Assembly (NCBI GenBank): GCA_009781395.1
Contig: WQYG01000012.1
Coordinates: 1 to 33,539 of the forward strand
Length of the DNA stretch: 33,539 nt
Direction of reading: 5' to 3'
Source of the DNA: Candidatus Bathycorpusculum sp.
GTDB lineage: Archaea; Thermoproteota; Bathyarchaeia; Bathyarchaeales; Bathycorpusculaceae
A program made the translations under genes and the position numbers. The notes beneath the pieces are model-generated. The model saw nothing but the letters and a program-made list of their open reading frames with translations, was not told the DNA's origin and made no database searches. Positions 4,957 through 33,539 of this stretch are shown here, piece by piece (the first letter of the stretch is position 1; every line of letters starts with the position of its first letter).

Positions 4957-5934
4957 ATGATGGTAATGGTTTGGTTAAAGGTGAAAATTTGCATGGGTAA
5001 AGGTTCAGGTTACGGAAAAGTGATTTTGTTTGGTGAGCATTTTGTGGTTCATGGCGTGGCTGGAATAGTTTCGGCTATTGATTCGTCAACAGATGCTATA
5101 GTGTCAAAAGGTGAAAGTGGTCTTGTTGTTAAAGATGATCGTAAAACTGCGAAGGGTTATAGTGAGGAGAAGCGGCTTCAGCAGATAGAGTCTATTGAGC
5201 GTATGTTGAAGGCTATGGATCTTGATCCTAAATTGCCTTTGGATATTTGGATAGGTGGGAGTCTTCCGGGGTTTAGTGGTTTAGGGGCTTCGGCGGCTAG
5301 TAGTGTTGCTATTGCGCGGGCGATTAATGAAGAGTTTGGTTTGAATCTGTCTAATGAGAAAATTAATCAGGTTGCTTATGAAGCAGAAATTGCGTATGCG
5401 GGTAATCCAAGTGGTATTGATAATACTGCGGCAACATATGGCGGTTTGATGTGGTTTAAAAAGGATTCCACAGGTGGACCTGATCTTGTTGAGCGTTTAA
5501 AAATTCAGATGCCTATTGAAATTGTAATTTGTAGTACAGGCAAAGTTGCTAATACTAAAGCTATGGTTGAAGGGGTTGCTGAACGTAAAAAGGCTAATCC
5601 GGCCAAGTATGAGCCTTTGTTTAGTCAAGCCGGAGATCTAACTGTTGCAGGGCGTAGTGCACTTGAAGCAGGCAAGTTGGAAAAGGTTGGTGAGCTTATG
5701 AATGAAAATCATAGGATTTTACAGGAGATTGGGGTTTCTAGTGTAGAGCTTGATTATCTTGTTGATGTAGCTCGTAAGCAAGGGGCTATAGGAGCTAAAC
5801 TTACAGGTGGTGGAGGGGGAGGTTGTATGGTTGCATTAACTCCTGGCAAAGATTTGCAAGAAAAAGTTGCCAATGCTTTTAGAGCTGAAGGGCTTGAGGT
5901 TTTAGCTACAAAAATCGGGGTTATAGCCCGTTAA
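4957..5934 (+). CDS. mvk: mevalonate kinase (start probably the internal ATG at 4993, MGKGSGYGKVILFGEH)
   Basis: GHMP kinase motifs: GKVILFGEHFVVHG, SLPGFSGLGASAASSVAIARA, GAKLTGGGGGGCMVAL. Confidence 0.92.
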   Translation: MMVMVWLKVKICMGKGSGYGKVILFGEHFVVHGVAGIVSAIDSSTDAIVSKGESGLVVKDDRKTAKGYSEEKRLQQIESIERMLKAMDLDPKLPLDIWIGGSLPGFSGLGASAASSVAIARAINEEFGLNLSNEKINQVAYEAEIAYAGNPSGIDNTAATYGGLMWFKKDSTGGPDLVERLKIQMPIEIVICSTGKVANTKAMVEGVAERKKANPAKYEPLFSQAGDLTVAGRSALEAGKLEKVGELMNENHRILQEIGVSSVELDYLVDVARKQGAIGAKLTGGGGGGCMVALTPGKDLQEKVANAFRAEGLEVLATKIGVIAR

Positions 5935-6013
5935 ACATTTTTTTTCTTTTTAACGTGTTAATGTTTTATTTTTGGTTAGTATTTGTTTGGTTTGGATTTG
6001 TGTTTTTTAAAAG

Positions 6014-7405
6014 TTGAAAGTGGTAGGGTTTTCCAAAAGCTATAAACGGGAACTGCTGTTTATTTTTATTTTTAGGCGAAAGAATTTGGATTTAAGAAGT
6101 TTCATTGAGTCACTTAAGAAAAGTGGCGAGTTAACAAATATTACAGAGTCAGTTTCCGTGGAGTATGAGTTGGCAGGTATAATTAATGCGTTAGGGGAAA
6201 AACCTGTTTTTTTTGAGAATGTTAAAGAAGCGGCTGTTCCGGTTGTTGCAGGGTTGGTTTCGTCTAAAGAGCTTATTTGTCGTTCACTTGGTATAACCAA
6301 AGAGCAATTGTTGCCAAAGCTTTCCTTAGCTATTGATAAACCCATTGAACCAAACTTGGTAGAGGAAGCGGTTTGTCAAGAAGTTGTATACGTAAATGAT
6401 GATGTTGATTTAACAAAGTTGCCAATTATGCGGTATACGGATAAGGATGGGGGGAAATATGTTGCTTCAGCGGTTTCTATAATTAAAGATCCTCAAACAG
6501 GTCAGCGGAACATGTGTTTTCATCGGCTTTTGCTTAAAGATAAAAATCATTTTGTTGCCCGTATAGTTGAAAATCGTGGAACAGATAGTGCGTTAAAGAA
6601 AGCTGGAGGAGAGTTAGATATTGCTATATGTGTGGGTAATTCTACGGCTGTTCTTCTTGCAGCGGCTACTTCGCTTCCAACAGGTGTTGATGAGTTAGGT
6701 ATGGCTAATGCTCTTGAAAAAACAGATCTAGTTAAATGTAAAACGGTGGATCTTGAAGTTCCGGCTGAGTCTGAATTTGTGTTTGAAGGCAAAATTATTA
6801 ATGAGAAAGCCACTGAGGGGCCTTTTCTTGATTTAACAGGTGTAGTTGACCGTATACGTCAGCAACCGGTAATTGAAATTAAATGTGTGACTCATCGTAA
6901 AAATCCAATTTATCAAACTATTTTAGCGGGTAAAAATGAGCACAAGTTTTTGATGGGTATGCCTAAGGAGCCTACAATTTACAATGAAGTAAATAAGGTG
7001 TGTCAATGTAAGGATGTTTACATCACGCCGGGAGGTTGTAGTTGGTTGCATGCGGTGGTGCAAATTCGTAAGACTCATGCAGATGATGGTAGGAAAGCTA
7101 TTTTGGCTGCGTTTGAAGGGCATAAATCTTTGAAACATATAGTTGTTGTAGAGGAGGACATTAACATTTATGACCCTCATGATGTTGAGTGGGCAATTTC
7201 AACACGGTTTCAAGCGGATAGAAATCTAGTTGTGTTGTCAAATCAGCCGGGATCTAGTCTTGATCCTTCAGGTGATCTCTCAGAGGGTAAAAAGGCTACA
7301 ACTGCCAAAGCAGGACTAGATGCAACAACCCCAATTGTGACCACCGGAAAAGGTTTCAAAAAAGAAGACTATATCAAAGTGGATCTAAACAAATATTGTA
7401 AATAA
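6014..7405 (+). CDS. UbiD-family decarboxylase (predicted trans-anhydromevalonate 5-phosphate decarboxylase)
   Basis: UbiD-like sequence (LDLRSFIESLKKSGELTNI..., TDKDGGKYVASAVSIIKDP, HADDGRKAILAAF, EEDINIYDPHDVEWAISTRFQADR). Located between MVK and AcnX. True start is probably near 6085. Confidence 0.88.
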   Translation: MKVVGFSKSYKRELLFIFIFRRKNLDLRSFIESLKKSGELTNITESVSVEYELAGIINALGEKPVFFENVKEAAVPVVAGLVSSKELICRSLGITKEQLLPKLSLAIDKPIEPNLVEEAVCQEVVYVNDDVDLTKLPIMRYTDKDGGKYVASAVSIIKDPQTGQRNMCFHRLLLKDKNHFVARIVENRGTDSALKKAGGELDIAICVGNSTAVLLAAATSLPTGVDELGMANALEKTDLVKCKTVDLEVPAESEFVFEGKIINEKATEGPFLDLTGVVDRIRQQPVIEIKCVTHRKNPIYQTILAGKNEHKFLMGMPKEPTIYNEVNKVCQCKDVYITPGGCSWLHAVVQIRKTHADDGRKAILAAFEGHKSLKHIVVVEEDINIYDPHDVEWAISTRFQADRNLVVLSNQPGSSLDPSGDLSEGKKATTAKAGLDATTPIVTTGKGFKKEDYIKVDLNKYCK

Positions 7406-7411
7406 ATAAGG

Positions 7412-8641
7412 ATGATGAAGGCGAGGAGTAATAGTAGTATGGAGTTAACTAAGCAAGAACAGGCAATGTTAGACGGTAAGGAAGGCTATGCTGTACGTAA
7501 AAGCATGGAAATCCTAGTTGCTTTAGGTGAAATTTTTGATGCAAAAAACTTGATTGATGTGGGTAGTGTTCAAGTTGCGGGGGTTTCGTATCATAATTTG
7601 GGTGATGCGGGTTTAGAGTTTTTGGATTCTCTTGCAAAGGATGGTAAAGTTAGGGTTTTAACTACGCTTAATCCGGCAGGTATGGATCTTGAGAATTGGC
7701 AGCAATTGGGCATAACTGCAGAGTTTGCGGAAAAGCAGAATCTGGTTATTGATGCTTTTCAACGTATGGGCATACTGGTTAGTTGTACTTGTACGCCGTA
7801 TCTTATTGGGAATCTTCCTTTGTATGGGGAGCATATTGCGTGGTCTGAGAGCAGTGCTGTAACGTTTGCTAACTCTGTTTTAGGGGCACGTACAAACCGG
7901 GAAGGGGGGCCGTCAGCTTTAGCAGCTGCATTTGTAGGTAAAACGCCTTGTTATGGTTTGCATCTTGATGAAAACCGTGTGCCGGAGGTGCATGTTCAAG
8001 TTGAAACAGAACTCTCCAAACTGTCAGATTGGGGAGCGTTAGGTTATGCTGTGGGTAAGAAAGCTGAAAATCAGATTCCATACTTAACAGGTATCAAAAC
8101 AGCTCAACTTGATGAACTGAAAAGTTTTTGTGCTTCAACAGTTACTTATGGCACTAAACCCTTATTTTACATAAAAGGCATAACGCCCGGTGCAGATAAG
8201 CAAGTTCAACCTAAAGAGACTGTTACAATTAAAGCAGAGGACATAAAAAACGCGTATGATAGCATTAATGATAATGTTGAAGAAATTGATTTTGTATGTG
8301 TTGGTTGTCCTCATTGTTCAATTAAAGAAATTCAAGAAATCGCAGATTTAATTGAGGGTAAAAAGGTTAAAGGGGACGTAGAGTTGTGGGTGGCAACTTC
8401 TCGAACAGTTAAGCATCTGGCAGATAAACGGGGTTACACAGCAATTATTGAGGCTGCGGGAGGTAAATTTGCATGTGACACCTGTATGGCAGTTGCACCT
8501 CTAAAAGGCAGATTCAAAGCTTTAGCAACTACCTCAGCTAAGGGTTGTTTTTATTCAAGACATAATCTTATGAAAACTAAAATGGGCAGCATGAAAGAAT
8601 GTATTAAAGCAGCGGTGAGTGGAAAATGGAACAGCAATTAA
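7412..8641 (+). CDS. aconitase X large/catalytic subunit (predicted phosphomevalonate dehydratase large subunit)
   Basis: AcnX domain with VSCTCTPYLIGNLPLYGEHIAWSESSAVTFANSVLGARTNREGGPSAL and FVCVGCPHCSIKEI. Overlaps the small-subunit gene. Confidence 0.92.
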   Translation: MMKARSNSSMELTKQEQAMLDGKEGYAVRKSMEILVALGEIFDAKNLIDVGSVQVAGVSYHNLGDAGLEFLDSLAKDGKVRVLTTLNPAGMDLENWQQLGITAEFAEKQNLVIDAFQRMGILVSCTCTPYLIGNLPLYGEHIAWSESSAVTFANSVLGARTNREGGPSALAAAFVGKTPCYGLHLDENRVPEVHVQVETELSKLSDWGALGYAVGKKAENQIPYLTGIKTAQLDELKSFCASTVTYGTKPLFYIKGITPGADKQVQPKETVTIKAEDIKNAYDSINDNVEEIDFVCVGCPHCSIKEIQEIADLIEGKKVKGDVELWVATSRTVKHLADKRGYTAIIEAAGGKFACDTCMAVAPLKGRFKALATTSAKGCFYSRHNLMKTKMGSMKECIKAAVSGKWNSN

Positions 8642-9021
8642 AAGGAAGAATAATTTATAAAGGAAAAGCCGAAGGCGAAGCTCTAGTTACCAATATGCCT
8701 ATAAGCTTCTTTGGCGGCGTAGACCCCAACACAGGTATAGTACTTGAAAAAGGCCACGAACTAGAAGGCCTAAGCGTCAAAAATAAAATTTTAGTATTCC
8801 CTCAAGGCAAAGGCAGCACTGTAGGCAGCTACACCCTATACCGTATGAAGAAAAACAACACAGCCCCCCTAGGCATGATAAACAAGGAAACCGAAACCAT
8901 CGTCGCAGTCGGCGCCATCATAAGCGAAATCCCCTTCATAGACAAAATAGACACCACAAAAATCAAAACAGGCAACAAAATCACCATAGAAAACGAAAAC
9001 ATACACATAATAACACACTAA
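8626..9021 (+). CDS. aconitase X small/swivel subunit, DUF126 (predicted phosphomevalonate dehydratase small subunit)
   Basis: KGRIIYKGKAEGEALVTNMPISFFGGVDPNTG...VFPQGKGSTVGSYTLYRM is characteristic of DUF126/AcnX swivel. Overlaps the large subunit by 16 nt. Confidence 0.92.
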   Translation: MEQQLKGRIIYKGKAEGEALVTNMPISFFGGVDPNTGIVLEKGHELEGLSVKNKILVFPQGKGSTVGSYTLYRMKKNNTAPLGMINKETETIVAVGAIISEIPFIDKIDTTKIKTGNKITIENENIHIITH

Positions 9022-9697
9022 CCACCCTCCTCCTCTTCAACCCCACATATACCACACCACAAACAAACAAATCCTTACAAACTAAAACCCTCAAAAAAAA
9101 TACATAGCCACATCAGAGTTTAACCTCCATAACGACATAAACACTGTTTGTTTGAAACCATTTTTCAATTAACACCCATAATAACACGTTCATTAATAGA
9201 GTAACCTTGTTTCTTTGAACTCTTAAAAACAGGACATAAACAAATTACACCTACAACACCCTTACAAACATTGAAAATTAAAAAACCATATTTTTCAACC
9301 CCACCACAATCACCTCAACTCCAGATATAGATACAAAATTCCGCAGTGTTTTGCACATATAGTTTTTTACTGCACAGGTGTGCGTCAATTTTTCATGCGC
9401 TGATTTTATGTATGTGCAAATTATGTGCCACACACGAAAACAGCTAAAAGTATTAAAAAAATATCTCGACATATTTTTTATAACATACAGTTTTACGTAA
9501 ATAACTGGATTAACTTTTTAAAAAATAAATTTTATTAAAGGTTTTAATTCAGGATGTTGTATGTGTCAAAAAGTTGTAGAGTTTAAGAGGGAATAGGCGC
9601 GCTAACAAGACAAGTCTTACGATTATCTTGCAGCAGTATTCATTAAAACCTCACATTTATCGCTGAGGCACTACCACCCTAAAAAGATGATTGTTTG

Positions 9698-9997
9698 CTA
9701 CAACAAATAATTGTTGTCCTTATTACCAACGCGTAATGTAAAAAGCTTATACGTTGCATACCCCTCTGCAACAAACGGTTCAGACTTGCAAATTGCTTCG
9801 GCCTCTTCATAACTTTCAGCGTTAAAAACGATCATACCTGCTACGCCGGGATACCCTTTAGTTGCCCCACAGAGAACTAGTTGTCCTGCAACATCCAATT
9901 TTTTTATATACTCTACGTGCTTTATAACCATCGCTTTGTTAATTTTGTTGTACGATTTGCCTCTTTCAATTAACATGACATAAGTCAACTTTTCCAT
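9698..9997 (-). CDS. YCII-related domain protein
   Basis: MEKLTYVMLIERGKSYNKINKAMVIKHVEYIKKLDVAGQLVLCGATKGYPGVAGMIVFNAESYEEAEAICKSEPFVAEGYATYKLFTL has the YCII-like pattern. Start refined to ATG at 9997. Confidence 0.75.
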   Translation of the reverse strand: MEKLTYVMLIERGKSYNKINKAMVIKHVEYIKKLDVAGQLVLCGATKGYPGVAGMIVFNAESYEEAEAICKSEPFVAEGYATYKLFTLRVGNKDNNYLL

Positions 9998-10013
9998 ATC
10001 AGTACCTGCCGAA

Positions 10014-10319
10014 TTAGTAACTTTGTACAACAGAGTAAATATTGCTTTTACAGGTGTCAAAGTTAAGAAATGAGTAAAACTTTTCAGCTAACTCATTTTT
10101 ATCGTTTTGTGACAATTCCAAAAAAGCATTAAGAGTATCCATTGTTTCAAACGTTACAGAATCTGCCCATGTATCACCTTCAACAAGTAGTTGAAATGAA
10201 ACATAGCCCTTTTGTTTTGAAACATACTCTTTGACTAGTTTTTCTATTGCAAGTAAAAAGTCTGGAACCGATACACCGTCATTTAGCTTGTAGGTGTTGG
10301 AAAAAACGGCATTAGACAT
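10014..10319 (-). CDS. small protein, possibly ferredoxin-fold/antibiotic monooxygenase-like
   Basis: MSNAVFSNTYKLNDGVSVPDFLLAIEKLVKEYVSKQKGYVSFQLLVEGDTWADSVTFETMDTLNAFLELSQ.... Start placed at the internal ATG at 10319. Confidence 0.5.
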   Translation of the reverse strand: MSNAVFSNTYKLNDGVSVPDFLLAIEKLVKEYVSKQKGYVSFQLLVEGDTWADSVTFETMDTLNAFLELSQNDKNELAEKFYSFLNFDTCKSNIYSVVQSY

Positions 10320-10461
10320 AACTGAGATCTCCGTTCCACCGTTTAGGTTTATGACACACTTTTTCAAGTACACCATCCCGAATAATACTGCAACAGTATA
10401 ACACATTATAAAAGTTTTTCATGGTGTTGTTGCGCTGATTTTTGGTTTTACTCACTTTATT

Positions 10462-10848
10462 TTACCTTATTTTTTTGCGATTACCGTTTTTATCAAAATT
10501 TTTTCTTAAGGCCTTTTCAGTGGGAATAATTGACCCTATGAGAAAAAATGTTTGAATTACTACAAGTATACATCCGAAAGTACTCACATCAGGGGCTTCT
10601 TTTCCTACTACAAAAAACATGGCACTTACCGATAGAGGAAACATAATTAGTCCAATGGTTTGCCAGAGTTTTCCGCAATAATTATGGGCAAATTTCCATG
10701 TATCCTTGTTTTTCATAGACATGTTGGTGCGATACCCAAATATGACGTTAATTTTAGCAGGAGCTTTTTTAACAAAAAAGCTACCAAACCCAATCATCAT
10801 TAAAGGGATAAATAACGACACAAATAACATAAAAATCCAAAAAGCCAT
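10462..10848 (-). CDS. SdpI-like membrane protein
   Basis: Three to four TM segments with the NVIFGYRTNMSMKNKDTWKFAHNYCGKLW motif typical of the SdpI/YhfL family. Confidence 0.75.
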   Translation of the reverse strand: MAFWIFMLFVSLFIPLMMIGFGSFFVKKAPAKINVIFGYRTNMSMKNKDTWKFAHNYCGKLWQTIGLIMFPLSVSAMFFVVGKEAPDVSTFGCILVVIQTFFLIGSIIPTEKALRKNFDKNGNRKKIR

Positions 10849-10866
10849 AGAAGAAACAACTCTTGT

Positions 10867-11331
10867 TTACTCGTCTATAACATAACCTCTATCCATTGCA
10901 ACAGTCAATTCATTAAATAACGTCATAGTTTTTTCACCGCTACTAAAACTTAGGTAAACATCTTTCCCGTTACCGCGTTCAACTCGTATTGTAGGCGAAG
11001 AGTTTAAACGAACAAACAACAAAGTCTCTCCAAGCGTGTCTGATTTAAAATGCCCCTGCAAAACGCCAAATACGTCAGCCCCATTAACCCTTCTACCAAC
11101 ATCCAGCCCACCCATACTACTCTCTATAAGACATATATCAGTTATATCTGAGAAATCAATTGTTAACCCATACATAGCTTTAATTTGCACACTACTATCA
11201 AAAACCGTTACCTCAGGCTCACTCACACTATAAACCAACGCCACACCAACTACAACAAGCACCACCACCGCAACAATAATACCAACAATACCCACTTTAG
11301 TACTTGCACCATTAACTGAAAAACGCTTCAC
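10867..11331 (-). CDS. membrane-anchored PH-like hypothetical protein
   Basis: N-terminal TM (VGIVGIIVAVVVLVVVGVALVYSV) followed by a globular beta-rich domain. In the same orientation and cluster as SdpI. Confidence 0.55.
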   Translation of the reverse strand: MKRFSVNGASTKVGIVGIIVAVVVLVVVGVALVYSVSEPEVTVFDSSVQIKAMYGLTIDFSDITDICLIESSMGGLDVGRRVNGADVFGVLQGHFKSDTLGETLLFVRLNSSPTIRVERGNGKDVYLSFSSGEKTMTLFNELTVAMDRGYVIDE

Positions 11332-12114
11332 ACTAACAACTCCATCAAGATAATGTAAACATAAAATAAAGTTATAAAATTTTCGTACGTGTTTAGCTTA
11401 CTGAAAAAGTCATGGATAATAGTAGCAAATTTCGCGCCAATACCTGTAATCACTACATAGCACTAAATACACACTAATAAAGATAGAAAAAATACGGCCA
11501 CGCATGTTTTTAAGCTTGACATACCATTTTCCCCTCAAAATATAATTAACTATAAAAAAATAAAGTTTTTCTTTTTTATCATGGTTTTTCCTTTCCATAC
11601 TCGGGGGTTTTGGTTGTTATTTAAAGTGTATTGCGTTTGTTCTATAGTTTGTCAATAGAAATAAGTGGTGGCGGGTTGGTGAGCGTGATTGTCTTTTGTA
11701 GACAAATTTTTTGTAACAAGAGATGCCGGTTGAGTAATAGTGTCTCCAATCGATATAATTTTACTATCAACATTAGGCATATCGACAATTCGTACAGTTA
11801 TAGGCTCCGCTTGATTAACAGTTGGGTTTAGGGGTTAGTAACTCACGTTAAACGTTTGAGGTTTTTTATGGTTTTTAGTCAATAAATAAACTAAAAGTTA
11901 TTTCAAAACATTTAGGTTAAATTTTATGTGTGTGTTGTGTTTCTGTGTCATGATGATGGTTCATCTATCTATCTAGATGTTGGTTTTATCTGCTGTGGAG
12001 AGGTTTTTGTTGGAAATTGGGTTTTTAATGTTAGAGTTGTTTGTTGGTGAAGTCTAGTTTAATAGTTTAAGTAGTGTAAAATTAATTAAGTATATTGATT
12101 TAGTTTAGGCGGTA

Positions 12115-12930
12115 ATGATTACAATGAATGATGCACGACCTATTATATTGAAACTTGGGGGTTCAGCCATCACTGATAAAGCGGTGGAGGCATGTCCAAG
12201 AAATGAGTTAATTAACCGTATGGCTGAAGAAGTTAAACGTGCGGATCTTGACAATTTGATTATAGTTCATGGAGGGGGCAGTTTTGGTCATCCGACAGCT
12301 GCAAAGTATGGCATTAAGGAGGGTTTTAAGGAAGGAGATTTAATGCAAAAGTTTGGGTGTGCTGAAACGCATCACATGATGACGGTGCTTAATGGTATTG
12401 TTATGGATGCGTTTATTTTGCACGAGATTCCAGCTGTTAGTGTTGCGCCGTTGAATTGTATGGTAACGGATAATGGTAAAATTAGGACGTTTGATGAGTC
12501 GGCTTTTAAGGCTATGGGTAAATTGATTTTTACGCCGGTAATGTATGGTGATGCGGTTATGGATGAGAAGCTTGGTTTTACTATTCTTAGTGGGGATCAG
12601 CTTGTTACTTATCTTGCGTTGAAGTATAATGCTGAGAGGATTGTTGTTGGGGTTGATACGGATGGTATTTTTGAGGAAGATCCAAAGGTGAATGCTGAAG
12701 CTAAGCCGATAAAGCATTTGAATCTTGCAGAGCTTAAAGCGTTGCAGCCTAAGCTTGGAAAAGCTGATGGGGTAGATGTTACAGGTGGTATGGCGGGGAA
12801 AATTGCGGAGCTTATCCCAGCTGTTGAGGCAGGTATACCTGTTACGGTTACGGGAGCTACGAAAAACTTGTCTATTTACAGAGCCTTAACAGGTCAAAGT
12901 GTATTGGGTACTGTAATAGAGAAGACGTAA
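12115..12930 (+). CDS. ipk: isopentenyl phosphate kinase
   Basis: Amino-acid-kinase fold motifs ILKLGGSAITDKA, IIVHGGGSFGHPTAAKYGI, DVTGGMAGKI. Neighbours are IDI2 and a prenyltransferase. Confidence 0.93.
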   Translation: MITMNDARPIILKLGGSAITDKAVEACPRNELINRMAEEVKRADLDNLIIVHGGGSFGHPTAAKYGIKEGFKEGDLMQKFGCAETHHMMTVLNGIVMDAFILHEIPAVSVAPLNCMVTDNGKIRTFDESAFKAMGKLIFTPVMYGDAVMDEKLGFTILSGDQLVTYLALKYNAERIVVGVDTDGIFEEDPKVNAEAKPIKHLNLAELKALQPKLGKADGVDVTGGMAGKIAELIPAVEAGIPVTVTGATKNLSIYRALTGQSVLGTVIEKT

Positions 12931-12931
12931 A

Positions 12932-14020
12932 ATGGCTGCAGAGAAAACTGAGAGAAGAAAAGCGGAGCATATTCGGATTTGTCTTGAAGAGAAGGCTCAG
13001 GCAAAGAAGGTGACGGCAGGGTTTGAGGATGTAAAGTTTGTTCATCGTGCTTTGCCGGAAGTTAATCGAGAGGATATTGACCTTTCAACTTTTTTTTTAA
13101 ATAAGTCTTTTGCTGCGCCTTTAATTGTGGGGGCTATGACGGGGGGTACGGAGGAGGCTGTTAGGATTAATCAAAATATTGCGGTAGCTGTTGAAAAGCT
13201 TGGGTTAGGTATGGGTTTGGGGAGTCAAAGAGCGGCTGTTGAGAATTGTGCTCTTGAGAGGACGTATGCTGTTGCGCGTAAGTTTGCTCCGAATGCTTTT
13301 TTGGTTGCTAATATTGGTGGTGTTCAGCTTGTTGAGGGTTATGGAGTAAAAGAGGTTCGTAGGGTTGTTGAAATGATAGATGCTGATGCTGTTGCGATTC
13401 ATCTTAATGCGTTGCAGGAGGCTGTTCAGCCTGAGGGGCAGACTGTGTTTAGGGGGGTTTTGGCAAAGATTTGTGAGGTTGCAGGTGAGTTAGATAAGCC
13501 TGTTATTGTTAAGGAGACTGGTGCAGGTATTTGTGCTGAAGATGCTAAAGCTCTTAGAGAGTCAGGGGTAAAGGCTATTGATGTTGGTGGTGTGGGTGGG
13601 ACTAGTTTTGCTGCGGTGGAATATTTTCGGGGTGAAGAAAGGTTAGGTGAGGCGTTTTGGGATTGGGGTATTCCAACGGTGGTAAGTGTTGTGGAGGTTT
13701 TGCAGTCTGTAGAGTTGCCGGTTATAGCGTCGGGTGGTGTGCGTAGTGGGGCAGATATTGCAAAATCGTTAGCTATGGGGGCGGGTTTGGCAGGTATTAT
13801 TCAGCCGGTGTTGGAAACAGCTGTTAGGGGTAGCCGAGAGACAGAACAGTTTCTTTTGGGTTTAATTGATGAGTTGAAAAATGTTTTATTTCTTGTTGGC
13901 GCAGAAAATGTTTCAGGTTTAGGTAAAGTGCCCCTAGTTATCGGTGGTGAAACTGCGCAGTGGTTAAAAATAAGAGGTTTTAATATAGAGGGTTATGCGC
14001 ATAGAGGAGGAGTATGTTAA
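12932..14020 (+). CDS. fni: isopentenyl-diphosphate delta-isomerase type 2 (FMN-dependent)
   Basis: FDEDVKFVHRALPEVNREDIDLSTFFL-type start (FEDVKFVHRALPEVN), PLIVGAMTGGTEEA, GMGLGSQRAAVEN, GVKAIDVGGVGGTSFAAVE, PVIASGGVRSGADIAKSLAMGA. Confidence 0.95.
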   Translation: MAAEKTERRKAEHIRICLEEKAQAKKVTAGFEDVKFVHRALPEVNREDIDLSTFFLNKSFAAPLIVGAMTGGTEEAVRINQNIAVAVEKLGLGMGLGSQRAAVENCALERTYAVARKFAPNAFLVANIGGVQLVEGYGVKEVRRVVEMIDADAVAIHLNALQEAVQPEGQTVFRGVLAKICEVAGELDKPVIVKETGAGICAEDAKALRESGVKAIDVGGVGGTSFAAVEYFRGEERLGEAFWDWGIPTVVSVVEVLQSVELPVIASGGVRSGADIAKSLAMGAGLAGIIQPVLETAVRGSRETEQFLLGLIDELKNVLFLVGAENVSGLGKVPLVIGGETAQWLKIRGFNIEGYAHRGGVC

Positions 14021-27846: not shown

Positions 27847-30336
27847 TCATTCGCCATCCTTGCGAAGACCAAGTTTCTTTTTTAGCCAATCCTCAAACAA
27901 CTCACCCCCACCTGTAGAAGCGTAAGCAGCCTCCATATTATTCCTCACAACCACTGTATTTGGATGCGCCTCCCCCAATCTTTTAACAATACAATAACTT
28001 TTAAGATACCACACCAACGCCTTCGCATAATCACCCAAACTATCATAGACGCTTGCGATGTTGTTGTAGGTACATGCAGTATCAGGATGCTCCTTACCCA
28101 ACACCTTCTCACGGATAGCTAAAGCTTTCATACACCACTCCAAAGCCCGCTCATACTCACCCTGCTCACGGTAGACTCCAGCGATGTTGTCGTAAGTAGT
28201 TGCAGTAGAAGGATGCTCCTTACCCAACACCTTCTCATATATAGCTAGGGCTTTTTCAAACCACTCCAACGCCACCTCAAAATCACCCTGCTCACGGTAG
28301 ACTCCAGCGATGTTGTGATAAGTAGTTGCAGTAGAAGGGTGTTCTTTATCTAACACCTTCTCTTTTATGGTTAGGGCTTTAAAATTCCACTCCAACGCCA
28401 CCTCAAAATCACCCAAACTATCATAGACTCCAGAGATGTTGTTATAAGTAATTGCAGTAGAAGGATGCTCCTTACCGAATACTTTTTCATCAATAGCTAG
28501 GGCTTTTTCAAACCACTCCAACGCCTTCGCATAATCACCCTGCTTACGGTAGACCTCTGCGATGTTGTGATAAGTAGTTGCAGTAGAAGGGTGTTCTTTA
28601 TCTAACACCTTCTCTTTTATGGTTAGGGCTTTAAAATTCCATTGTAAGGCTTTGGTGTAATCCGCAGTATCATCATAGTACCTTCCAAGCCAGAGCATTA
28701 AAGTTGCAAGCGTTTCGGTTTGGGTTTGTTTTTCAAAAAAATAGTCTGCTAAAGACTCCGCAAAAGGAACATATAACTCGGCCTTTTTGAAAATTTCGTT
28801 TGAATCCCAAGAAACATCACTGGCCAACTGTTCTACTAACCGGCGATGATTATCAAACAGTATGCTTGTTGTCTGGGAAAGCACCGCCACCTTCACCAAC
28901 TGATGCATAGCATAAAAAGAACCCGACAACGTTGACTTTTCTTCTTGTTTATGCTCATGGAACATTAGCCAGGTGAGTTTGGATAAGTTGTTTAATGCAA
29001 GACGACAATCATCTTCATCTATATTTGCGTCTTCGCATAGCCATTGTACGCAGGTTTTTTGCTCAAGGGGTAAACTTGGAAATAAAGCAAACATCTCAAG
29101 AACCTTCCTCTCCAAACAATTTTTAATGTCTTTCAAAGGATAAAGTTTGTTAAATTCCTCTTGCAGGGTCTCATCGTTAAGTCCTTTGCGTATGTCAAAT
29201 TTTTTGGCTTCTAATTTTTGGGTTAACTCGGCAATAGTCCAGTTATGAGCTTTAGTCATTGTACCAAGACGCGTTAATGCCAAAGGGTTACGTCCAGCCC
29301 GATTTTTAACAATATCCAAAAGAACTTTCTCATCAACATCTGGCAAACGATAATTTTTAGTGTCATATCTATTGGCTTTAAAGATTTGTACACAGGCCTC
29401 TTCAGAAAGAGGCTTAATAGGTTCGTTTGTAAATTTTTCAGGCGACGTTCGAGAAGCAAATAGCACTGTTGCATTCAAAGTAAACAATTTACTAAAAGTT
29501 TCATCTATTGCAAGGGTTTGTTTTTGTTCTGTTTGTCGTAAACGGTCATCATCAATTAAAAGCAGTACAGATTTGTCTGCACACAATTTCTGCATATAAC
29601 TCCAAACAGCATCTACAGTCTTATCCCCTGGATAATCAATTTGTTGCATCAAATCGCTATCCATAGAACCCTTATAGGTTACCAAAGCAATATGAGCAAA
29701 CGACGCATTTGGCTTATTTGCAAAGTGGGTGTATATTTTGTTTAGTGTTTCTGTTTTGCCAATACCGCCCATACCTGTCAAACAAATACGGGGTCTGTTG
29801 TTTTGTAGCTTTTTACAGAGTTCCTTAACAAAATCATCTATACCCTGTAGATACTTGTTTTCCCAACAGGGCGTTTTGGGAGTTAAATTGTACTCAGGAT
29901 TAAAAACCATCGGGGAGGTGTTTTTCAAAATTTGCAAGATCTCTGACTGGGCTTGTATGGATGCTAAATGGAATTGTAGCTCAAAATTTTTGTAAAGTTC
30001 ACTGTTTTTATCTTTACAGAGTTGAGCGTGAAAATTTGAGATAAAACAGTTAATGACCTCTATGGGGAACTTGTTTAATTCTTTTTCAACGATTTCTTGT
30101 AAAACTTTAATGGTGCCTGAATTTTTATTTAGTGAAGAAAATGTTTCGGGAACAGAGGATGAGATGTTTTGGTATTTTTGTTGTTTGGCGGTGTCTTGCC
30201 AAGCATTTATCAGGCAGTCTTGAAGCTGTTCAATATGATTTGTTGGGTTGCATTTTTTGTATGCGTCGTATGCAATTTTTAATAGACTTGTGCAACTAGC
30301 TATAGCCTGTAAAGCGGTTAATGCTTCCATGAACAT
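27847..30336 (-). CDS. STAND NTPase: NB-ARC domain plus C-terminal TPR repeats, novel N-terminal helical domain
   Basis: Walker A GMGGIGKTETL, Walker B-like VLLLIDDDRL, sensor-like VLFASRTSP, NRAGRNPLALTRLG (GLPL-like), winged helix, then six 42-aa TPR_12-type repeats. Confidence 0.88.
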   Translation of the reverse strand: MFMEALTALQAIASCTSLLKIAYDAYKKCNPTNHIEQLQDCLINAWQDTAKQQKYQNISSSVPETFSSLNKNSGTIKVLQEIVEKELNKFPIEVINCFISNFHAQLCKDKNSELYKNFELQFHLASIQAQSEILQILKNTSPMVFNPEYNLTPKTPCWENKYLQGIDDFVKELCKKLQNNRPRICLTGMGGIGKTETLNKIYTHFANKPNASFAHIALVTYKGSMDSDLMQQIDYPGDKTVDAVWSYMQKLCADKSVLLLIDDDRLRQTEQKQTLAIDETFSKLFTLNATVLFASRTSPEKFTNEPIKPLSEEACVQIFKANRYDTKNYRLPDVDEKVLLDIVKNRAGRNPLALTRLGTMTKAHNWTIAELTQKLEAKKFDIRKGLNDETLQEEFNKLYPLKDIKNCLERKVLEMFALFPSLPLEQKTCVQWLCEDANIDEDDCRLALNNLSKLTWLMFHEHKQEEKSTLSGSFYAMHQLVKVAVLSQTTSILFDNHRRLVEQLASDVSWDSNEIFKKAELYVPFAESLADYFFEKQTQTETLATLMLWLGRYYDDTADYTKALQWNFKALTIKEKVLDKEHPSTATTYHNIAEVYRKQGDYAKALEWFEKALAIDEKVFGKEHPSTAITYNNISGVYDSLGDFEVALEWNFKALTIKEKVLDKEHPSTATTYHNIAGVYREQGDFEVALEWFEKALAIYEKVLGKEHPSTATTYDNIAGVYREQGEYERALEWCMKALAIREKVLGKEHPDTACTYNNIASVYDSLGDYAKALVWYLKSYCIVKRLGEAHPNTVVVRNNMEAAYASTGGGELFEDWLKKKLGLRKDGE
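27949..28704 (-). repeat. six tandem 126-nt (42 aa) TPR-coding units, with a 252-nt two-unit higher-order duplication
   Basis: Protein repeats TTYHNIAxVYRxQGDxxxALEWFEKALAIxEKVLGKEHPSTA. Near-identical DNA blocks offset by exactly 252 nt (28321 vs 28573; 28251 vs 28503). Confidence 0.92.
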
Positions 30337-30791: not shown

Positions 30792-33539
30792 ATGAATGTT
30801 TTAAACACTAATACATCAAAACAACATACCCAACCCGCTCATACACAAAGCGGCCACAACAAACCGTGTTCTTCCCCAAAAACACTCACCAAACAACAAA
30901 AACAAAACAACCAAACAAAACGTGGGATGTTTAACAGCATAAACCCTGTTACGTTTAACTTAAATTTTACTTCTAAAACTAATTTACAAAAACGTTACCG
31001 TAACAGCACAATTTTTACGCTTATATCTGCACTATGCATGTTTGCACTATTACTCTCCCTCTTTTCCTCATACAGCAGTGTTGCTCCTTTTGCCTTAGGA
31101 GCCACCTCTAATAAAGAGGTTACAAACTCAGCAGAACTTATAGCTGCAATCACTGCAGCCCCTACCGGAAATTCTTGGGTCATCGCCCTTAAAAACGACA
31201 TACAACTAACAGCCACACTTACCATACCCTCAGGTAAAAACATCACTTTTGTGAGCATATATGAGGAGGGGGTTAATGCCAATACAGCGGCTTTTTGGAA
31301 ACTTGTCGGCCAAAATAACGAAGATACCATTATCGTTAGCAATAACGGTATTTTGAGACTGGGTTCTTCAGCTGAGGCTAACGACGGCATTACTGTTACT
31401 CATGCAAATGGTCAAGCCGGCAGAGGCATAACAATCAACAGTGGCGGTACACTTATCATAAATAGTGGAGAGATCTCAAAAAACACCGCTGATAAGGGTG
31501 GTGGAGTGAACAACAAAGGCTCTTTTACTATAGCAGGCGATAACGTTGTAATTGCCAACAACACCGCAACCAACAGTGGTGGGGGCGTATATATCGAGCA
31601 GAAGTGTACCTTTAAGGTAACAGGCAATAACATGATAATTGCCAACAACACTGCCCCACTTGGTGGAGGTATGTACAATTGGTATGGAACTTTTGAAGTG
31701 ACAGGCGACAACATGATAATTGCCAACAACACTGCTACATCTAATGGTGGAGGTGTGTGGAGTCGAGAAAATTTTAAGGTAACAGGCAATAACATGATAA
31801 TTGCAAACAACAAAGCCGGCTATGGTGGCGGTGCGTATGTTGATGGCGGTGCTTTTGTGTTGTCAGGCGATAACATGATAATTGCCAACAACACTGCTAC
31901 ATCTAATGGCGGAGGTGTGTACAATCGGCTTGGTTCTTTTGAGATATCAGGTGATAATATGATAATTGCTAATAGCACTGCCAATAATGGTGGGGGTGTG
32001 TATAACGATAATTTTGGCAAGATTGTTGTGTCGGGAGATAATATGGTATTTGCCAACAATACGGTGCGTTCTTATGGTGGTGGTATGTGGAACGGGGGTT
32101 CTTTTGAGGTATCAGGAGATAATGTAGTGATTGCTAACAACATTGCAGCCATGTATGGCGGTGGTATATACAACAACGATGGCACTGTTACTATGTCGGG
32201 TGATAATGTGGTGATTGTTAACAATACTGCCACTAGGTACGATGGTGGAGGTGTGCATGTGCAGTTCGGTTCTTTTAGCATGCTTAATGGCATAATTTCA
32301 GGTAATACTGCAGGTGGTGATGGTGGGGGTATATGTAGCTGGGGCACTTTTGTCACATCCGGTGACATAGTGATTACCAACAACAAGGCCGTCTGGGGTG
32401 GGGGTGTATGCCACAGCAACAGGTCTTTTGATATGTTGGGAGATAATACAGTAATTGCCAACAACACCGCAACCCGTGACGGTGGTGGTGTGCATATCAT
32501 ATCAGGCACTGTCACCATATCAGGCGATAATGCAGTAATTGTCAACAATACCGCACGCGATAGTGGTGGAGGTGTGTGCATAGAGTCCGGCACTTTTAAC
32601 ATGCTTAATGGCATAATTTCTGGCAATACTGCAGGTGGTGATGGTGGTGGCGTATACAACTGGGGCACTTTTGTCATATCCGGTGACATAGCGATTACCA
32701 ACAACAAAGCCATCTGGGGCGGGGGTGTGTTCAACATCAGGTCTTTTGAGGCGTCTGGAGATAACATTGTAATTGCAAACAACACTGCCTCTTGGGGTGG
32801 GGGCGTATACAACTTTGATGGCACTTTTACTGTAACGGGAAATAACATGATAATTTCAGGTAATACAGTTATTGGTGATGGCGGGGGGGTGTGTAACTAT
32901 GATGGCACTTTTACTGTAACGGGAAATAACATGATAATTGCAAACAACACTGCCTCTTGTGGTGGGGGTGTATGCAACGATGGAGGTACTGTTGAGATGT
33001 CTGGAGGCACGATAGCTAACAACACTGCAACCCATGGTGGCGGAGTATTCAGCTGCTATGGTTCTTTTGAGGCATCAAAAGATAGTATGGCGATTATCAA
33101 CAATATTGCTACCGGTAGTGGTGGGGGTGTGTTCACATGGCACGGTAATTCTTTTGTTATGTCTGATGGCGTTATTGCCAATAACACAGCATACAACGGA
33201 GGGGGCGTGTTTGTTGAGGACAGCTCTTTTATTATGGGGGGCGGTAAAATTGCCAATAACACAGCCAACTCTGGCGGCGGCATATATGTTGCCGATGATG
33301 GTTTTGTTAATTTGTTGGATGGGACAATTTCAGGTAATGTGGCTTCAGGTAATGGCGGGGGCGTTTGGATTACAGACACCACCACAAATCTACACAGGCT
33401 TACTGTTGCCAATACAGTAGTATTTTTAAACAATATTGCTTCCAGCGCACACAACATACACCCGGACCACGAACACCACTACAACACCCACATCGGCCCA
33501 AAAGTAACATGGACCGAACCCTTCACCCACGGATACAAC
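30792..33539 (+). CDS. large secreted/surface Pmp-like (beta-helix) repeat protein, 3' end outside window
   Basis: Frame open for 916 codons from ATG 30792 (alternative start 30927, MFNSINPVTF...) to the window end. Hydrophobic segment STIFTLISALCMFALLLSLFSSYSS, then many GGG[VIM]xN...[FV].[VIM]SGDNMIIANNTA repeats. Missing from the ORF track because it has no stop in the window. Confidence 0.88.
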   Translation, partial: MNVLNTNTSKQHTQPAHTQSGHNKPCSSPKTLTKQQKQNNQTKRGMFNSINPVTFNLNFTSKTNLQKRYRNSTIFTLISALCMFALLLSLFSSYSSVAPFALGATSNKEVTNSAELIAAITAAPTGNSWVIALKNDIQLTATLTIPSGKNITFVSIYEEGVNANTAAFWKLVGQNNEDTIIVSNNGILRLGSSAEANDGITVTHANGQAGRGITINSGGTLIINSGEISKNTADKGGGVNNKGSFTIAGDNVVIANNTATNSGGGVYIEQKCTFKVTGNNMIIANNTAPLGGGMYNWYGTFEVTGDNMIIANNTATSNGGGVWSRENFKVTGNNMIIANNKAGYGGGAYVDGGAFVLSGDNMIIANNTATSNGGGVYNRLGSFEISGDNMIIANSTANNGGGVYNDNFGKIVVSGDNMVFANNTVRSYGGGMWNGGSFEVSGDNVVIANNIAAMYGGGIYNNDGTVTMSGDNVVIVNNTATRYDGGGVHVQFGSFSMLNGIISGNTAGGDGGGICSWGTFVTSGDIVITNNKAVWGGGVCHSNRSFDMLGDNTVIANNTATRDGGGVHIISGTVTISGDNAVIVNNTARDSGGGVCIESGTFNMLNGIISGNTAGGDGGGVYNWGTFVISGDIAITNNKAIWGGGVFNIRSFEASGDNIVIANNTASWGGGVYNFDGTFTVTGNNMIISGNTVIGDGGGVCNYDGTFTVTGNNMIIANNTASCGGGVCNDGGTVEMSGGTIANNTATHGGGVFSCYGSFEASKDSMAIINNIATGSGGGVFTWHGNSFVMSDGVIANNTAYNGGGVFVEDSSFIMGGGKIANNTANSGGGIYVADDGFVNLLDGTISGNVASGNGGGVWITDTTTNLHRLTVANTVVFLNNIASSAHNIHPDHEHHYNTHIGPKVTWTEPFTHGYN
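31490..33360 (+). repeat. about 20 or more degenerate tandem coding units of roughly 81-84 nt (27-28 aa) in the Pmp-like protein
   Basis: Recurring aacatgataattgccaacaacactgc...ggtggaggtgtg units, e.g. near 31626, 31710, 31791, 31873 and 31957. Confidence 0.88.

Follow-up and report, generated by a model that had tools for sequence, protein, structure and literature searches.

The window (the whole 33,539-nucleotide stretch of DNA analysed here) ends in a truncated gene. Its product is likely an extracellular beta-helix stalk anchored in the membrane of a termite-gut bathyarchaeon, whose genome has about 60 such paralogs, and most plausibly acts as a non-enzymatic adhesin. The family as a whole probably supplies adhesins with which cells keep hold in the gut, judging by its presence in two separate termite-dwelling lineages and its absence from most relatives in the genus. 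The open frame, its repeats, the paralogs and their distribution are read from sequence and the fold is predicted, whereas signal cleavage, the C-terminus of this copy, surface display, adhesion and adhesion targets are what we infer.

A genuine gene at the contig end

From an ATG at 30792, a plus-strand frame runs without a stop through 916 codons up to base 33539, where contig C12 of the source genome, which the window spans in full, ends and the gene is cut (Table 1). A frame of this length would arise by chance at the same base composition with P ~1e-25, and we confirm 30792-33539(+) as a genuine, 3'-truncated gene. The first-pass annotation had described an uninterrupted plus frame reaching the window edge and had dismissed the antisense ORFs listed for the region as by-products, and both observations hold. 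The gene is missing from the default ORF list solely because its frame continues past the contig end. Comparison with the closest paralog suggests Met46 as a possible true start. With up to three mismatches allowed, the last 36 bases of the contig have no second occurrence in the genome.

The source genome (2,128,005 bases in 163 contigs) matches the termite-gut MAG Emb289P3_bin80, assigned to phylotype 2 of the termite-gut Bathyarchaeia and recovered from the termite Embiratermes neotenicus (P3 compartment; PMC7886697), a phylotype now placed in the genus Bathycorpusculum (PMC10684969). In so fragmented a metagenome assembly the feature could in principle be an artefact, i.e., bin contamination or a frame that happens to be open in repetitive DNA, and Pmp-like repeats do occur in protists and bacteria too (PMC10715098). 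We consider this exceedingly improbable, however, as the contig is shared with archaeal GltX, isopentenyl phosphate kinase, SMC and aconitase X, the SMC tree puts the contig within the genus, and more than 60 homologs exist in the same genome, with many more in sister genomes. Archaeal neighbours, SMC placement and frame-length statistics rule out contamination or a chance ORF.

Elsewhere in the window, the genes at 4957-14020 (mevalonate kinase, a UbiD-family decarboxylase, both aconitase X subunits, isopentenyl phosphate kinase and a type 2 IPP isomerase) presumably represent the archaeal modified mevalonate pathway. On the minus strand, an 829-aa NB-ARC-like ATPase with TPR repeats (27847-30336) adjoins the surface-protein gene; it resembles STAND-type sensors, though PADLOC gives only a weak TPR match. 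Ten adjoining stretches of related genomes, covering the MgtA and/or SMC side, held neither a match to this ATPase nor a copy of the beta-helix family, and the position of the beta-helix gene is not conserved as far as these ten contigs reach.

Table 1. Features of the truncated surface-protein gene (positions in the window).
Feature	Position	Strand	Remarks
Truncated Pmp-like beta-helix surface-protein gene	30792..33539	+	916 codons, 3'-truncated; Met46 (30927) as alternative start
Signal/transmembrane segment, residues 70-104	30999..31103	+	hydropathy; paralog comparison; ends ...VAPFALGA
Conserved N-terminal domain, residues 105-232	31104..31487	+	cap and first beta-helix coils; profile A1
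Beta-helix, ~24 coils of 25-29 aa	31488..33377	+	GGG[VIM] / xNNTA repeats, Chlam_PMP PF02415
C-terminal cap, start only	33378..33539	+	...VTWTEPFTHGYN; cut by contig end

Protein architecture and predicted fold

Residues 70-98 are strongly hydrophobic (Kyte-Doolittle 19-residue mean up to 2.38) and form the sole such segment in the 916 aa; an SPFALGA-like motif at the end of the signal/TM segment turns up again in paralogs. The segment would act as an export signal or a membrane anchor, with putative cleavage. This hydropathy peak is the membrane/signal segment that had been noted at first pass, and together with the archaeal contig neighbours it supports the accompanying suggestion of an exported surface protein in an archaeon. 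The N-terminal domain (N-domain) that follows gave no solid match to any Pfam family, but our own profile for it, A1, matches at 31113-31538 with E 8.5e-48.

The remainder of the protein is dominated by a repeat that combines GGG[VIM]-aromatic with xNNTA. GGG occurs at 25 places, spaced 25-29 aa apart in nearly all cases, and 22 of the 23 GGG[VIM] motifs fall within residues 245-870, vs a mean of 1.05 and a maximum of 5 in shuffled sequences. An HMM search against Chlam_PMP, which the first-pass annotation had proposed as a check, returned a match (PF02415, 6.1e-15) well above the curated cutoff (54.2 vs 20.6 bits). Another of its proposed checks, structure prediction, also came out in favour of a beta-helix: the AlphaFold2 model of residues 105-916, for which named termite homologs were aligned as input, places short strands in one continuous series (pLDDT 91.8, pTM 0.87), and the protein is thus predicted to form a long beta-helix, presumably right-handed, going by the fold class. 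A sequence search of solved structures yielded nothing useful. Foldseek against the PDB returned generic beta-helix proteins, autotransporter adhesins and lyases among them, with no match below E 0.001—much like the outcome of DALI searches with chlamydial Pmps (PMC10715098).

Full-length paralogs and the missing C-terminus

The closest paralog by N-domain, L039 on contig C26, is 64% identical and a sister with support 100/99. Its 1340 aa between stops comprise the N-domain, 20 repeats, a cap, Flg_new (Listeria-Bacteroides) repeats (1.1e-20) and a FILTED membrane domain (2.4e-20, 72.9 bits vs a cutoff of 40). The last residues of the truncated protein, VTWTEPFTHGYN, begin a conserved cap that is homologous to, and in paralogs runs on as, WTxPFTQGYNNYDISY. 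Going by L039, the missing C-terminus of the window gene is expected to bear Flg_new repeats and a multi-helix FILTED anchor. Contig C26 itself opens inside a FILTED domain (L039 1-200) on the plus strand, some 300-400 bases ahead of the closest paralog; we conjecture that this tail could complete the window gene at its 3' end, the two genes then lying in tandem.

Other paralogs combine a Pro/Ser/Thr-rich linker with one C-terminal TM, or lack a C-terminal TM. Among the 37 members of the source genome that were read, 36 have a hydrophobic N-terminal segment and 19 a hydrophobic C-terminal one, the rest being without one or cut. The anchor anticipated at first pass is thus found as a FILTED membrane domain in the closest full-length paralog, while the Ig-like repeats suggested alongside it gave no Pfam match in the cut window protein or the bathyarchaeal relatives scanned. 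Flg_new repeats number 74 in the genome, many of them in other large ORFs; contigs C1, C8, C40 and C44 carry further ORFs of great length (1225-2273 aa) that contain Flg_new, mostly outside the beta-helix family. The longest N-domain members seen are open frames of 2576 aa (G038:C107) and 3595 aa (G093:C72).

A large family in two clades of the genus

Behind the window gene stands a large multigene family that was not visible from the window itself. The source genome holds 63 near-complete N-domain copies in ~61 ORFs, occupying ~98 kb or ~4.6% of the genome, both figures being lower bounds given that several copies are cut by contig ends.

Across the taxonomic family, the N-domain was found in 16 of 91 genomes, all of them within the genus (16/32) and none among the 59 genomes from other genera, with 1 to at least 46 scored copies per positive genome. 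In an SMC tree of 30 genomes the positives fall into two separate clades with good support (10/10 and 5/5), plus G024, which has a single copy and sits beside a genome without any; the presence label requires 3 changes on this tree vs 10.3 when labels are shuffled. FILTED follows the same pattern: 14 of the 15 multi-copy genomes have it above cutoff, and no match passes the cutoff in any of the 16 genomes lacking the beta-helix family. All eight family-bearing bathyarchaeal genomes traced by name are termite-gut MAGs, spread over both clades; the termite link rests on these eight named positives. The two positive clades fit the published termite lineages TB1 and TB2, which are polyphyletic with non-termite MAGs between them (PMC10684969).

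The N-domain tree does not keep the copies of the two clades apart and mixes them in several supported groups, although the tree has only 134 columns and an unsettled bootstrap, and its details are rough. One set of copies, G021 against G032/G013, is 75-79% identical, more alike than SMC is between the clades (66-74%), while proteins of this family otherwise diverge faster than SMC; this pattern suggests gene transfer between the two termite lineages.

Elsewhere in the phylum sample (398 genomes), the N-domain appeared in three genomes of one genus of the same order, one copy each. In Bathyarchaeum tardum M17C the single copy (L172 2783-4021) is chromosomal, lies between two conserved-looking genes and is ~47% identical to the termite copies. 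As this cultivated organism, enriched from sediment, is free-living (PMC10477458), the N-domain is not exclusively host-linked. A termite-gut Eggerthellaceae MAG also encodes a distant N-domain, as part of a 1170-aa protein that includes ChW and Ig-like domains (L070 1827-5336); the scan of named genomes used a profile from a four-sequence subset, the first profile being too diverse, which limits the census, especially for bacteria. It is possible, if somewhat doubtful, that the two termite-gut lineages each built their beta-helix/FILTED repertoire from a low-copy gene of the kind that persists in free-living B. tardum, partly by mutual transfer within the gut, i.e., that the family is a traded attachment toolkit marking the move to an insect host.

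Function and alternative readings

We propose that the protein would be exported via its N-terminal signal/TM segment and that the N-domain would cap and seed a parallel beta-helix of ~24 coils projecting from the cell. Conserved glycines and asparagines would build the helix core, whereas loops and coil number would differ between copies, such that many parallel variants could bind differing gut surfaces (e.g., particles, other microbes, host cuticle) and attachment could help a hindgut fermenter escape washout. Termite Bathyarchaeia must grow fast enough to withstand washout unless attached to a gut surface (Loh et al., PMC7886697).

Two other readings have to be weighed against an adhesin. 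Polysaccharide lyases and phage tailspikes often have beta-helices too, which counts against it, and the protein might instead be a cell-anchored carbohydrate-active enzyme, a lyase- or pectinase-like catalytic stalk degrading plant or soil polysaccharide in the hindgut. The weak Foldseek matches do include PL6 alginate lyases and pectin methylesterases, and Pectate_lyase_5 weakly touches 3 of 16 N-domains, but this Pfam family is described as a putative adhesive domain, the window protein matches no lyase or esterase family, and its near-identical coils, as seen in repeats and model, appear to offer no unique catalytic site. The dozens of variants, ranging from 3 to over 20 coils, suit a stalk better than an enzyme, and we regard catalysis as quite unlikely.

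Slightly less unlikely, yet still improbable, is a surface-variation or shielding coat, in which the proteins would be spacers or decoys diversified against viruses or host defences without specific adhesion. Such a coat would accord with the many paralogs, their high divergence (end branches median 0.43) and variable genomic locations, and with the G tracts of 6-7 upstream of and within the gene. On the contrary, there is neither a long slippage tract nor any set of near-identical copies indicative of recent gene conversion, and one supported ortholog group hardly varies in ORF length (710-722 aa across four genomes), which argues for fixed functions. We retain the adhesin as the preferred reading.

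If so, the family is a concrete candidate answer to how termite-gut Bathyarchaeia avoid washout, for which attachment had been left as a possibility (PMC7886697). Its presence sets two clades that include termite-gut members apart from the remaining genus, and it could serve to mark host association in the genomes of a class that is familiar chiefly from sediments. The single-copy homolog of the cultivated B. tardum offers an experimental entry. For adhesins in Bathyarchaeia, our literature search matched work on vertebrate gut archaea only (most subscription journals lay outside it), and a term search found none in the available text of Loh et al. (PMC7886697) and Protasov et al. Pmp-like beta-helices in Methanobrevibacter and sets of adhesin-like proteins (ALPs) in gut methanogens are already known; what appears to be new is how large the bathyarchaeal set is, how it is distributed over clades and how its proteins are built.

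Comparison with known systems

The repeats resemble those of chlamydial Pmps (PF02415) in that paired motifs would stabilise ~27-residue rungs of a long beta-helix (PMC10715098). Of the first-pass comparison, the GGG[VIM]/NNTA repeats and Pmp-likeness at the repeat level stood, whereas the likeness to the chlamydial GGAI/FxxN tetrapeptides did not: GGA[ILV] is absent from the window protein and FxxN occurs only 3 times, and family-wide GGA[ILV] numbers 42 vs 902 for GGG[VIM]. Neither PMP_M nor an autotransporter barrel was matched in the truncated window protein or in the scanned relatives, among which L039, L062 and L069 are full-length, and the full-length bathyarchaeal relatives have C-terminal membrane helices instead of the barrel. 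By sequence, then, this protein has Pmp-like repeats but is not a chlamydial Pmp. Pmp-like proteins have been published for Methanobrevibacter, Phycisphaerae and Trichomonas, with GGGM variants in Phycisphaerae (PMC10715098).

With the ALPs of gut methanogens the family shares a large paralogous set, an N-terminal membrane segment and a beta-helix domain (PMC11532034). ALPs make up 10.7-10.9% of the Methanobrevibacter smithii and Methanosphaera stadtmanae genomes (PMC11532034), vs at least 4.6% for the bathyarchaeal family, yet Chlam_PMP repeats, the main theme here, occur in only 1 and 2 ALPs of those methanogens. The ALPs also belong to another phylum, and the bathyarchaeal N-domain is distinct; the archaeal Big (Ig-like) domains typical of ALPs had no Ig-like Pfam counterpart in the cut window protein or the bathyarchaeal relatives scanned, the ALP domain having no curated model in the scan. 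FILTED surface proteins (NF052597) are matched by the closest full-length paralog, which ends in Flg_new repeats and FILTED, whereas in many paralogs the C-terminus has one plain TM or no TM at all, and the window copy ends before the FILTED region. The Flg_new/ALP gains of other host-associated archaea concern other lineages and mostly other repeat types, with no Pmp-like expansion in the accessible portions of the reports (PMC9723798, PMC7883539), but Methanimicrococcus blatticola and host-associated Methanomassiliicoccales have likewise gained repeat surface proteins relative to their free-living kin.
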